From Brevinematales bacterium (lineage in GTDB: Bacteria; Spirochaetota; Brevinematia; Brevinematales; GWF1-51-8): a stretch of 64,000 bases of DNA. This document shows positions 17,701 through 53,190 of this stretch, in pieces. The notes beneath the pieces were generated by a model. The model made no database searches and had not been told where the DNA came from. It saw only the letters and a program-made list of their open reading frames with translations. The position numbers were made by a program, and so were the translations under genes. The DNA is taken from assembly GCA_020059465.1 (NCBI GenBank), contig JAGVBZ010000030.1:1-64000 (forward strand). The letters run 5' to 3'. Position 1 is the stretch's first letter; each line of letters begins with the position of its first letter.

Positions 17701-17830
17701 GATGGAATATGCCTCCGATATTCTTAGGCGCATAAGAGTCTAACGGAAAGCGGTGGAATTTACAAAATTTCACCCAAACTATTTGAAATAATCGGAATCC
17801 TCCGTTATAATAATGAAGTTCCATGGGTGT

Positions 17831-17889
17831 GCTGCGCACGCTAACCCCGATATCGGGCTGCATTCGAATAAATGACTATATAGCCCGTG
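17831..17889 (+). repeat. Interspersed repeat family 1, copy A
   Basis: gcgcacgctaaccccgatat-N28-agcccgtg. Confidence 0.65.
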
Positions 17890-17926
17890 TTCGAGGTAGT
17901 ATTTCATGGTGAGTATTCCGAATTAT

Positions 17927-17983
17927 GTAGCGCACGCTAACCCCGATATTGAGAGTTGCGATGATACATACAATCAGCCCGTG
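17927..17983 (+). repeat. Interspersed repeat family 1, copy B
   Basis: tagcgcacgctaaccccgatat-N26-agcccgtg. Confidence 0.7.
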
Positions 17984-18048: not shown

Positions 18049-18123
18049 GGGTGATTAGCTCAGTTGGTTTAGAGCACCTGCTCGACAAGCAGGGGGTCAC
18101 TGGTTCGAATCCAGTATTACCCA
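18049..18123 (+). tRNA. tRNA-Val (GAC)
   Basis: 75-nt cloverleaf; acceptor GGGTGAT/ATTACCC, anticodon stem CCTGC/GCAGG, loop TCGACAA, T-arm ACTGG TTCGAAT CCAGT. Confidence 0.9.
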
Positions 18124-18145
18124 ATTTGATTTTTACATTACGTCC

Positions 18146-18272
18146 GGGCGATTGGCTCAGTCGGTTTAGAGCACCACGCTCACATCGTGGGGGTCGGCCG
18201 AAACCGCCGTCGTGGCTTCTTTCGGCACTCCCCACATCCTGAGGGTCGCTGGTTCAAGTTCAGTATCATTAC
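18146..18272 (+). pseudogene. Chimeric/degenerate tRNA-Val (CAC) pseudogene
   Basis: First 50 nt identical to the intact tRNA at 18294, then 52 nt of extra sequence, then a diverged T-arm/acceptor half that no longer pairs with the 5' acceptor strand. Confidence 0.75.
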
Positions 18273-18293
18273 TACAGTTTTTTGGTATCACGC

Positions 18294-18368
18294 GGGCGAT
18301 TGGCTCAGTCGGTTTAGAGCACCACGCTCACATCGTGGGGGTCGCTGGTTCAAGTCCAGTATCGCCCA
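18294..18368 (+). tRNA. tRNA-Val (CAC)
   Basis: 75-nt cloverleaf; acceptor GGGCGAT/ATCGCCC, anticodon stem CCACG/CGTGG, loop CTCACAT. Confidence 0.93.
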
Positions 18369-42739: not shown

Positions 42740-43646
42740 TAAGCTCGACAGAATAAAATATTTTCTCGAGAAGCATCAGGAGAATATTCGCTCGTGCAGG
42801 ATGTGCCCCCGCGCATGCGGGGTCGACCGTGCGAAGGAACTCGGCGAATGCGGCGAGGGGTTCGACCCGCGCATATCGAGCGCGAACCTGCATTACGGCG
42901 AAGAACCCCCCATCTCCGGGACTTCCGGGAGCGGCACCATCTTTTTCACCGGATGCAATCTCCATTGCCTATACTGCCAGAACTTCCCGATCAGCCAGCT
43001 TCACCGCGCGACAAAAACACTCGGCACGGAATCCCTCGCGGATACGATGCTTGCTCTGCAGAAACGCGGCGCGCATAATATCAACTTCGTCACACCGTCG
43101 CATTATGTCTATCAGGCGGTCGCCGCGCTCGGCGCCGCTGTCGAAAAAGGGCTGACTATCCCCGTCGTCTATAACACGTCGGGCTACGACAGCCTGCCGG
43201 TTATCCGCGACCTCGAAGGGATTGTCGATATCTATCTGCCCGATATGAAATATGTGTTCGACGATATCGCGGTCGAATACTCCTGCGCGCCGGACTACCC
43301 CCGGATCAACCGGAGCGTCCTGCTGGAGATGTACCGTCAGACCGGCCTGGAAATCGATGCCGACGATGCGGGAATCGCTAAGCGCGGGTTAATCATCCGC
43401 CACCTCGTCATCCCAGGAAATGTCGAAAACTCGAAAGAAGTGCTGAAATGGATCGCGGAGAACCTGTCTCCGGATATCCATCTCGCGCTCATGTCGCAGT
43501 ACTTCCCCGCCGACCGCGCGGCAAATCACCCTGTGATCGGCAGACGGCTGACTCAGGAGGAATACGACGAGGTGATCGGGTACGCCGACGGGCTTGGGTT
43601 CGAGAACGGCTGGTTCCAGGAACTCGAGGCACACGGCGGCTGCTGA
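42729..43646 (+). CDS. Radical SAM protein (PflA-like/AmmeMemoRadiSam-related)
   Basis: FFTGCNLHCLYCQNFPIS (CX3CX2C) preceded by CRMCPRACGVDR. Confidence 0.88.
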   Translation: MRTDKLDRIKYFLEKHQENIRSCRMCPRACGVDRAKELGECGEGFDPRISSANLHYGEEPPISGTSGSGTIFFTGCNLHCLYCQNFPISQLHRATKTLGTESLADTMLALQKRGAHNINFVTPSHYVYQAVAALGAAVEKGLTIPVVYNTSGYDSLPVIRDLEGIVDIYLPDMKYVFDDIAVEYSCAPDYPRINRSVLLEMYRQTGLEIDADDAGIAKRGLIIRHLVIPGNVENSKEVLKWIAENLSPDIHLALMSQYFPADRAANHPVIGRRLTQEEYDEVIGYADGLGFENGWFQELEAHGGC

Positions 43647-43650
43647 CATT

Positions 43651-43709
43651 GCATGCCGGCTAATCCCGATATCTGAAGATTAGATATAAAGAGACATCAG
43701 CCCGTGATG
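43651..43709 (+). repeat. Interspersed repeat family 1, copy C
   Basis: gcatgccggctaatcccgatat-N26-agcccgtgatgg. Confidence 0.7.
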
Positions 43710-49206: not shown

Positions 49207-49253
49207 GCAGGCTGGCGATACATCATCTGCGCAACATATCGTAATGGGGTTAG
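49207..49253 (-). repeat. Interspersed repeat family 2, inverted copy
   Basis: Reverse complement reads ctaaccccattacgatat...atcgccagcctgc, matching 52891 and 53070. Confidence 0.6.
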
Positions 49254-50412: not shown

Positions 50413-52704
50413 TTATTCCTTATCGGTTTTCAACGCTTTTAAATACGCACCGATAGTCCCGAAGTTCGACACCGGCTTCTGGGGCGGAGCCTCCTTCGCA
50501 GGCGCCGCTTTCTTCAGTACGGGCGCGGACTTAGGGGGAAACTCCTTCTTCTCGGCGGGCTTGGGCTGGCCGGGAGTTGATTCCTTCTTCCGGGACAACG
50601 ATATCCGCCGCCGGACGGGGTCCATTTCGATGATCCGGCACTCGACCAAATCGCCGACCTTGATCACCTCGCTCGGGTCTTTCACATAACGGTCGCTGAG
50701 CTCGGAGATATGCAGGAGCGCGGTCTCTTTGATCCCGAGGTCGATAAACGCGCCGAACGGTACGACGTTCTTGACCTTGCCCTTCACCGTCATCCCCGGC
50801 TTGAGGTCTTCGAACGTCACCACTCCCTTCTGGAACACCGAAGCGGGGAAATCGTCACGCGGGTCGCGGTTGGGCTTCTTGAGTTCCTCGATAATATCCC
50901 TGACCGTCGTATCGCCCACCCCGAACTTCGCCTTTAAATCCTGCTGAACCGTTTTATCGATTGCCGTCTGTTCCTTGATAAGACGGAGGATTTCCCCGGC
51001 GATTTCATAGTTCTCCGGGTGCACCCACGTGTTATCCAACGGGTTCGCGCTCTCAGGGACTTTTAAAAACCCGGCGGCCTGCTCGAAACTTTTCGGCCCC
51101 ATCCCGGACACCTGCTTCAAATCGTCGCGGCTTTTGATCGTCCCGACCTTATCGCGGTATTCCACTATATGCTTCGCGATAGTCGTGTTCACCCCGGAAA
51201 CATACCGGAGGAGCGACCATGACGCGGTATTGATATTCACACCGACATTGTTCACCACCGACTCGACCACCTCATCAAGAGAGGACGCGAGCGACTTCTG
51301 GTTCACATCGTGCTGGTACATCCCCACCCCGATGGACTGCGGGTCGATCTTGACCAATTCCGCGAGTGGGTCCTGCAGACGGCGGCCGATCGATATCGCG
51401 CCGCGTATCGTGAGGTCGAGGTTCGGAAATTCCTCGCCCGCGAGCGGGGACGCCGAATACACGCTTGCCCCGTCCTCGGAGACCACTGTAAACTGCGTAT
51501 CGAGACTGTTCTCCGCGATCGTCTCCGCGACTTGCAATTGTACCTCGTGCGACCCGGTGCCATTTCCGATAGCGATCAGATGTATATCGTACTTCTTTAC
51601 CGCGTCGGCGATTGCCTTTTTCGCCTCGTCGGGCTTATGCTGGTAGATCATGAAATACCCGAGGTACTTGCCGCTCTCGTCGAGCGCGGCGCATTTTGTC
51701 CCGGTACGTATACCCGGATCGATACCCAATACCCGCGTGCGCTTGATGGGCGGCTGTAAAAGCAGGTTGCGGAGGTTCTCCGAGAAAATATGGATCCCCT
51801 CGGATTCCGCCTCGTCCCATTGCGTGCCGCGGATATCGCGGAGCACCGCCGGAAACAAGAGACGCTTAAGCCCGTCGGCAACCGCGTTCTTATGATAGAA
51901 GCTGGGGGCGGTATAACGGCGCTGGACTTCCGCCTCGGCGTTCTCCGCCTCGAACTCGATCTTCACCGCAAGCTCGCCCTCGCGTTCGCCGCGGTTGATC
52001 GCCATAATCCGATGGGATTTCAGAGACGAGACCGTCTCTTTATAATCGTAATACATTTTATACACACTTTCGTCGGCGTTCTTGAGGCCGTTGATCTCGA
52101 TCTGCCCGTGCTTCACCACAAAGTTCCGGCACATCGCACGGTTATCCATATCCTGCGCGGCACGTTCCGCGATAATATCCATCGCGCCCTGGAGCGCGTC
52201 GTCACGGTTCTCGACTCCCTTCTCGGCGTCTATGAACTCCAGCGCGGCCTTCTCCAATTCGACGTCGCTCATGGTGACCATCATATCCGCGAGGGGTTCG
52301 AGGCCCTTCTCGATAGCGATCATCGCGCGGGTCTTCTTTTTCTGCTTGTAGGGCGCGTAGATATCCTCGAGCTCCGACATGGTCGCGCACTTCCGGATAT
52401 TCTCGTAGAGGTCTTCTGTCAATAGTCCGCGCGAGAAGATGACTTTTATCATTTCGATGCGCCGGGTTTCGAGGTTGACATACTGGGTCAGGAGATGGGA
52501 AATATCGCGCACCTTGGTCTCGTCGAGCGATCCGGTAATCTCCTTACGGTAACGCGAAATGAACGGCACGGTGCAACCTTCATGGATGAGCCCGACTGTC
52601 GCATGTACCTGCCGCGACACGACCTCGATCTCCGCCGCGATCCGTCCGATAATCTCCGCCTCGTCGACAGCAAGACTGTTGATAAATTCTTCGTTGAGTT
52701 CCAT
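50413..52704 (-). CDS. tex: Tex-family RNA-binding protein with S1 domain
   Basis: VLGIDPGIRTGTKCAALDESG, HhH region, C-terminal S1 domain GMTVKGKVKNVVPFGAFIDLGIKETALLHISELS. Confidence 0.95.
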   Translation of the reverse strand: MELNEEFINSLAVDEAEIIGRIAAEIEVVSRQVHATVGLIHEGCTVPFISRYRKEITGSLDETKVRDISHLLTQYVNLETRRIEMIKVIFSRGLLTEDLYENIRKCATMSELEDIYAPYKQKKKTRAMIAIEKGLEPLADMMVTMSDVELEKAALEFIDAEKGVENRDDALQGAMDIIAERAAQDMDNRAMCRNFVVKHGQIEINGLKNADESVYKMYYDYKETVSSLKSHRIMAINRGEREGELAVKIEFEAENAEAEVQRRYTAPSFYHKNAVADGLKRLLFPAVLRDIRGTQWDEAESEGIHIFSENLRNLLLQPPIKRTRVLGIDPGIRTGTKCAALDESGKYLGYFMIYQHKPDEAKKAIADAVKKYDIHLIAIGNGTGSHEVQLQVAETIAENSLDTQFTVVSEDGASVYSASPLAGEEFPNLDLTIRGAISIGRRLQDPLAELVKIDPQSIGVGMYQHDVNQKSLASSLDEVVESVVNNVGVNINTASWSLLRYVSGVNTTIAKHIVEYRDKVGTIKSRDDLKQVSGMGPKSFEQAAGFLKVPESANPLDNTWVHPENYEIAGEILRLIKEQTAIDKTVQQDLKAKFGVGDTTVRDIIEELKKPNRDPRDDFPASVFQKGVVTFEDLKPGMTVKGKVKNVVPFGAFIDLGIKETALLHISELSDRYVKDPSEVIKVGDLVECRIIEMDPVRRRISLSRKKESTPGQPKPAEKKEFPPKSAPVLKKAAPAKEAPPQKPVSNFGTIGAYLKALKTDKE

Positions 52705-52766
52705 TATTCCCTCCCGAGAGTGTGAGGTTATATTCTACCGTGAATCGGCGAAAAAGTAAAGGTCAT

Positions 52767-52828
52767 TGCATGACGGCTATTCCCGATATCAAACAGTGTC
52801 TCATCAGACAGATATAGCCCGTGATGCA
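52767..52828 (+). repeat. Interspersed repeat family 1, copy D (clearest inverted ends)
   Basis: tgcatgacggctattcccgatat-N26-agcccgtgatgca; ends tgcatgacgg.ctat and rc tgcatcacgggctat. Confidence 0.75.
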
Positions 52829-52890
52829 GGACTTTCAGTCTTATTCGCAGTATGGCGGGGGCTTGTCCTCGCCGCATGGCGGGGGCTTGT

Positions 52891-52931
52891 CCCATTACGA
52901 TAGATTGTATATGGTAAAATCGTTAGCCTGC
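52891..52931 (+). repeat. Interspersed repeat family 2, copy 1
   Basis: cccattacgatagattgtatatggtaaaatcgttagcctgc; 39/41 identical to 53070-53110. Confidence 0.8.
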
Positions 52932-53069
52932 GACAGAAAAAACAGCGTCACCCTGAGCATTAGTCGAAGGGTGCCGCAGAGACACCCCCGCTTCGCGAGG
53001 GCAAGCGGAGAACACGGAGGGAGAATAGTACTGCGCCCCCTCCTTGCAGTCGGGGACAAGCACGCTAAT

Positions 53070-53110
53070 CCCATTACGATAGATTGTATATGGTGAAATC
53101 GTCAGCCTGC
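53070..53110 (+). repeat. Interspersed repeat family 2, copy 2
   Basis: cccattacgatagattgtatatggtgaaatcgtcagcctgc. Confidence 0.8.
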
Positions 53111-53190
53111 CTTCTATCTTTGTTAGAAGGTAGACAGGTCCTCGCGCGAAGCGCGGGGGCTAATCCCATTGCCAATAAAACGAAAAATAT

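Follow-up and report, generated by a model that had tools for sequence, protein, structure and literature searches.

Intergenic regions in four genomes of a single Spirochaetota genus carry a short hairpin-bearing DNA repeat, which is probably (we estimate about 60%) a REP/REPIN-like non-autonomous element occurring as two sister families, A and B. The window, i.e. the whole 64,000-nt stretch of DNA that was analysed, is contig C29 of the 3.19-Mb spirochaete genome G000. Family A consists, in order, of a hairpin of 4–5 bp with a TGC loop, 0–2 bases, a head box CTAAYCCCGATAT, a middle of 24–28 nt, a tail box AGCCCGTG and a weak WTGAAGG extension, for a repeat size of roughly 70–90 nt, and the middle is 26 nt long in three quarters of copies. 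Sister family B has the same hairpin type and similar spacing with different boxes, CCCATTAC + AGCCTGC (CTANNCCCATTAC + AGCCTGC(G)).

In the copy that drew attention to the family, the plus strand carries the hairpin GTCAT-TGC-ATGAC at 52762–52774 (the covariance-model match also starts at 52762), followed by the head box CTATTCCCGATAT at 52777–52789, a 26-nt middle at 52790–52815 that differs between most loci, and the tail box at 52816–52823 with the weak extension behind it; both boxes were placed by pattern search and box alignment. The first-pass annotation had the element begin at 52767 with the left end TGCATGACGG, which is in fact the loop plus the 3' arm of this hairpin (the loop TGC being 52767–52769), and the start therefore had to be moved back. 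On its hairpin side the copy abuts the promoter of tex (50413–52704, minus strand, identified by Pfam Tex domains), with a single nucleotide between the hairpin and the −35 box TTTACT (52755–52760, minus strand); the −10 box TAGAAT lies 17 nt beyond (52732–52737, minus strand), as judged by promoter fit. The same border holds a different family A copy in G002 and a family B copy in G003, with the junction kept in both.

We examined the hairpin in 198 non-identical copies that were picked by their boxes only, ignoring the hairpin. A perfect stem of ≥4 bp was present at the hairpin site in 125 of these 198 copies (63%), whereas control offsets gave 3%; the loop was TGC in 112 of the 125. The stems varied yet stayed self-complementary (GTCAT, GTCAC, CCCAC, CACCC, GTAC, GTGC, CTGC, CCGC, GTCC and others). 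Among 19 aligned copies, 97.9% of the 5' hairpin pairs were formed, with a covariation of 0.747 vs. 0.273 after shuffling; the box-chosen set of 198 is the unbiased test, since the 19 aligned rows were mostly picked as hairpin formers. The reverse strand shows the core as a tag, a spacer of 1–2 bases and a GCA-looped hairpin, and the tag was TTAG in ~83% of cases, CTAG in 11% and ATAG in 5%.

Pattern searches, on which the genome-wide counts rest, returned 47, 62, 90 and 3 copies of family A and 23, 18, 24 and 9 copies of family B in G000, G001, G002 and G003, respectively, while control patterns returned 0. The family was thus not confined to the window, as the exact family A pattern alone occurred 44 times in G000 and its reversed pattern 0 times. 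A covariance-model search, the check that the first-pass annotation had proposed and for which per-genome counts are lower bounds (a maximum of 41 candidates was scored in each genome), recovered copies in G000–G003 and none among 116 further relatives. Across ~85,000 species genomes the only other match to the exact pattern was the congener MAG Spirochaetes bacterium GWF1_49_6, the matches of which coincide with those of G001 in contig number and position. Sequence searches of IMG/VR viral contigs, PLSDB plasmids and INPHARED phages found no member of the family, and Rfam gave zero matches at the gathering cut-off or at E ≤ 1. Of the refuting outcomes that the first-pass annotation had named, an Rfam match and confinement to the window both failed to appear. 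The genomes are drafts of uncultured organisms in which many arrays sit at contig ends; in G000, contigs C3, C9, C16, C18, C21, C22, C29, C32, C33, C43, C44 and C46 end within repeat arrays, and shared middles join some of these ends (e.g. C29/C43, C44/C46 and C18/C32). These ends are assembly breaks rather than separate loci, and repeat arrays thus account for assembly breaks in genomes of the genus.

Within the window, the head CCCGATAT and the tail box co-occurred four times (17846, 17942, 43665 and 52782) with spacings of 28, 26, 26 and 26 nt, exactly as first described, compared to a mean of 0.04 occurrences in shuffled windows, which never contained four. The first two copies (both plus strand) form a tandem at 96 nt: copy 1 (17829–17889) has the hairpin GTGC-TGC-GCAC, a head box from 17841 and a tail box ending at 17889, and copy 2 (17924–17983) has a broken 5' hairpin of which the right arm, GCAC, is kept. 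Copy 3 (43647–43706, plus strand) carries the hairpin CAT-TGC-ATG directly 3' of the TGA stop codon (43644–43646) of a radical SAM gene. Family B is represented by a copy at 53065–53110 (plus strand; CTAATCCCATTACG...AGCCTGC), in the intergenic region that it shares with the copy at 52762, by another at 49207–49253 (minus strand) and by a degenerate one, read from the sequence, at 52886–52932 (plus strand; CTTGTCCCATTACG...AGCCTGCG). Other repeats share intergenic regions with the element at 52940–53160 and at many loci, e.g. GTCACCCTGAGC..GTCGAAGGGTGC and GTCATAGTGAGCCTGTCGAA, often directly behind the element's linker. Between the intact tRNA genes at 18049–18123 and 18294–18368 lies an extra tRNA-like sequence (18140–18290; GGGCGATTGGCTCAGTCGGTTTAGAGC...) that received no tRNA call and is apparently broken by a hairpin-like insert (GTCGGCCGAAACCGCC...).

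All 198 copies were intergenic, with 0 lying within genes as predicted by a simple, purpose-made script, and their placement was sharply one-sided. On the hairpin side, 24 copies faced the 3' end of a gene, −2 to +9 nt from its stop codon (12 at exactly 0), and 37 faced the 5' end of a gene whose start was 36–75 nt distant, i.e. they lay at promoters; on the tail side there was no such seating, with 0 copies at stop codons and 2 at promoters. The best-fitting −35 box started at the hairpin (offset 0) in 15 of the 37 promoter copies and at offset 1 or 2 in 5 more, compared to 1 of 37 at offset 0 for shuffled promoters, and most of the remaining promoter copies had a gap of 8–11 nt that, by eye, resembles an arm plus the TGCG of an older hairpin. 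At promoters the order is element, −35 box, gene, with the element directed away from the gene. The sequence preceding the hairpin comprised stop codons (TAA, TAG and TGA) and reversed −35 ends (CAA and AAA), which loosely follow the order pyrimidine/purine-purine-purine. This exact seating may stem from selection, if nothing but the strip from stop codon to −35 box can be dispensed with and if new units enter old ones and keep their seat, or it may alternatively reflect a true target preference or a host function.

A host function would be that of a cis-acting border or insulator: a host protein would bind it, either at the stop codon or immediately upstream of the −35 box, selection would keep it, and the middle would serve as a neutral, fixed-length spacer between two binding boxes. 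We regard this as possible, though doubtful. Exact seating on functional borders with a single fixed polarity, the near-constant middle length of 26 nt, and the retention of element and boxes at most orthologous borders of G001 and G002, where hairpin and middle have changed, all speak for it. Against it, only a small share of genes has the element, its tandem arrays vary in copy number, one congener has just 3 copies of family A, orthologous borders can swap A for B, and bodies recur at unrelated loci.

The arrays indicated how the repeat changes. The tail-to-head gap between tandem neighbours peaked at 41–46 nt, giving units of ~90 nt, and neighbours were arranged on the same strand in 76 cases, tail-to-tail in 20 (6 of these with linkers of 24–28 nt) and head-to-head in 4. 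Perfect hairpins were found in 85% of gene-flush copies compared to 33% of inner tandem units (P = 6e-7). Since inner units of several arrays keep the right arm of the outer unit and not the left, duplication seems to begin in the loop; units also nest within older ones, either behind the CCGA of the head box or behind the TGCG of the hairpin. At orthologous borders of G001 and G002, most of which carry the element, the boxes were kept, whereas the hairpin, the middle or the family had often changed, and G003 often had no element there. The first-pass annotation had proposed comparing empty sites in relatives, and at four loci (L002, L023, L026 and L028) this comparison showed tandem gain or loss and no clean insertion: at L028 one species has one tandem unit more than the others, and a loss between two units would account for the difference between G002 and G000 at L023. 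The orthologous borders of G001 and G002 mostly already carry an element and thus give no demonstration of recent transposition.

Some copies at different loci share a near-identical middle and linker and differ in their hairpins; for example, the copies on C173 and C196 of G001 have middles identical at 26/26 positions and a hairpin identity of 0.27. An exception is the pair G001 C128 and G002 C46, which has a common hairpin as well. The hairpin thus appears to change faster than the remainder of the repeat. Such changes might be those of a mobile or self-renewing repeat outside the RAYT system, in which the hairpin would be rewritten at each locus, both arms together and the body unchanged, by a machinery that seats it exactly on the last stop-codon base or the first −35 base; we put this forward only tentatively.

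The partner enzyme suggested by the first-pass annotation, a RAYT (Y1 transposase, PF01797), did not materialize, with none in G000, from which the window comes, or in its copy-rich relatives G001 and G002. In G003 there was a single Y1 domain, embedded in an Eco57I-type methylase with no repeat nearby; at this locus (L070, region G003:C43:7128-7442) the IS200-like domain lies in frame within an Eco57I/N6 DNA methylase of >900 uninterrupted amino acids. No reverse transcriptase was detected in any of the four genomes, and IS110 yielded nothing above the cut-off in the four, with one sub-threshold match in G003 only. As RAYTs were undetectable in the copy-rich genomes, another enzyme or process has to be sought. 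The same absence of a Y1 transposase from three copy-rich genomes weighs against an IS200/IS605-type single-strand element inserted on the 3' side of a short motif, TNA or TCAA-like, that stop codons and reversed −35 boxes share. Such an element would on its own account for where the repeat sits and for its polarity. In its favour, the polarity is one-sided, the stops and reversed −35 ends all fit the pyrimidine/purine-purine-purine motif before the hairpin, and distant arrays showed a weak same-strand concordance (24 vs. 11, P = 0.04), a replication-strand bias that is suggestive only and that clustering of gene orientation could create. However, the motif is much too common to yield exact seating alone, and what precedes the hairpin is only this loose motif rather than a specific tetranucleotide target, so that we consider this explanation unlikely.

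The first-pass annotation had described the family as REP-like or MITE-like on the basis of imperfect inverted ends, and only the first half of that description stood, as the repeat is short, multi-copy, intergenic, hairpin-bearing, genus-restricted and arranged in tandem and inverted orientations. End-to-end pairing is the minimum-energy DNA fold of this one window copy (z = −3.5) but does not extend to the family as a whole: among the 19 aligned copies, the 13 proposed end-to-end pairs were formed in 71.3% of cases compared to 71.8% after shuffling, with a covariation of 0.117 vs. 0.121. Pair statistics at fixed offsets likewise singled out the 5' hairpin, with no convincing covariation elsewhere, and RNAalifold found no structure in a MAFFT alignment because hairpins of unequal length were misaligned. 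A MITE with terminal inverted repeats mobilized by a host IS, to which the fold of the window copy and the multi-copy, intergenic distribution would be suited, is very improbable, as covariation is lacking for the end-to-end pairs and the ends are unlike each other in both sequence and behaviour; no target duplication or matching IS was seen, the locus comparisons having yielded no clean empty site. Least probable of all is a structured RNA (riboswitch, ribozyme or leader), which the covarying hairpin and the conserved boxes around a variable middle might suggest, given the lack of Rfam matches and of covariation beyond the 5' hairpin, and because at promoters the element precedes the −35 box and is directed away, so that it cannot be in the adjoining gene's transcript.

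We return to the REP-like reading, against which it counts that plain insertion at a random intergenic site does not predict exact −35 seating, that the tag is TTAG, that G000–G002 have no Y1 transposase and that no clean empty-site insertion was obtained. A transposase-like nuclease, since lost or not recognizable as such, would have recognized the hairpin in single-stranded DNA, and the stretch from a stop codon to the next promoter, being dispensable, would be the only place where copies survived. Present change would proceed mainly in three ways: tandem duplications that begin in the loop of the hairpin, the loss of units at the outer side, and body exchange among loci. REP elements are common, and for the question of how they spread and why they persist at particular places this family offers an unusually sharp placement rule together with two sister families for comparison.

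Integron attC sites lie directly behind stop codons and have conserved ends, a variable middle and a GTTRRRY right box. Judged from sequence, the present repeat shares with them the position after stop codons and the conserved ends around a variable middle; in contrast to attC sites, its arms pair beside the variable part rather than around it, it has no GTTRRRY right box, and it also occurs upstream of promoters.

TnpA-REP cuts GTAG-tagged REPs in their single-stranded hairpin form (PMC8266576). Like these REPs and BIMEs (PMC3733652, PMC2817692), the repeat has a short hairpin with a short loop and an adjoining unpaired tetranucleotide tag, and forms lineage-restricted families of multi-copy, intergenic units in single, tandem and inverted arrangements. 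Unlike them, it has a TTAG rather than a GTAG tag, a stem of just 4–5 bp, an extra conserved body of ~45 nt with a fixed-length variable middle, and exact seating at stop codons and −35 boxes, with no RAYT in three copy-rich genomes. REPs with a CGTC tag are known without a dedicated transposase and have been reported from Spirochaetes too (PMC3733652), although their CGTC tag, 8–9 bp stems, 4–5 nt loops and CCA tails are missing here (PMC3733652). Because the reverse-strand plan equals that of GTAG-tagged REPs, and CGTC-tagged REPs exist without a dedicated transposase, we read the family as REP-like, probably acting now or formerly in the same way, rather than as a member, for which the tag and the RAYT link fail. 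With REPINs (PMC3116915) the repeat shares tandem clusters, and closely spaced inverted pairs may be a unit here as well; unlike REPINs, most neighbours here are in tandem on the same strand, and linkers of 24–28 nt occur in just 6 of the 20 tail-to-tail pairs.
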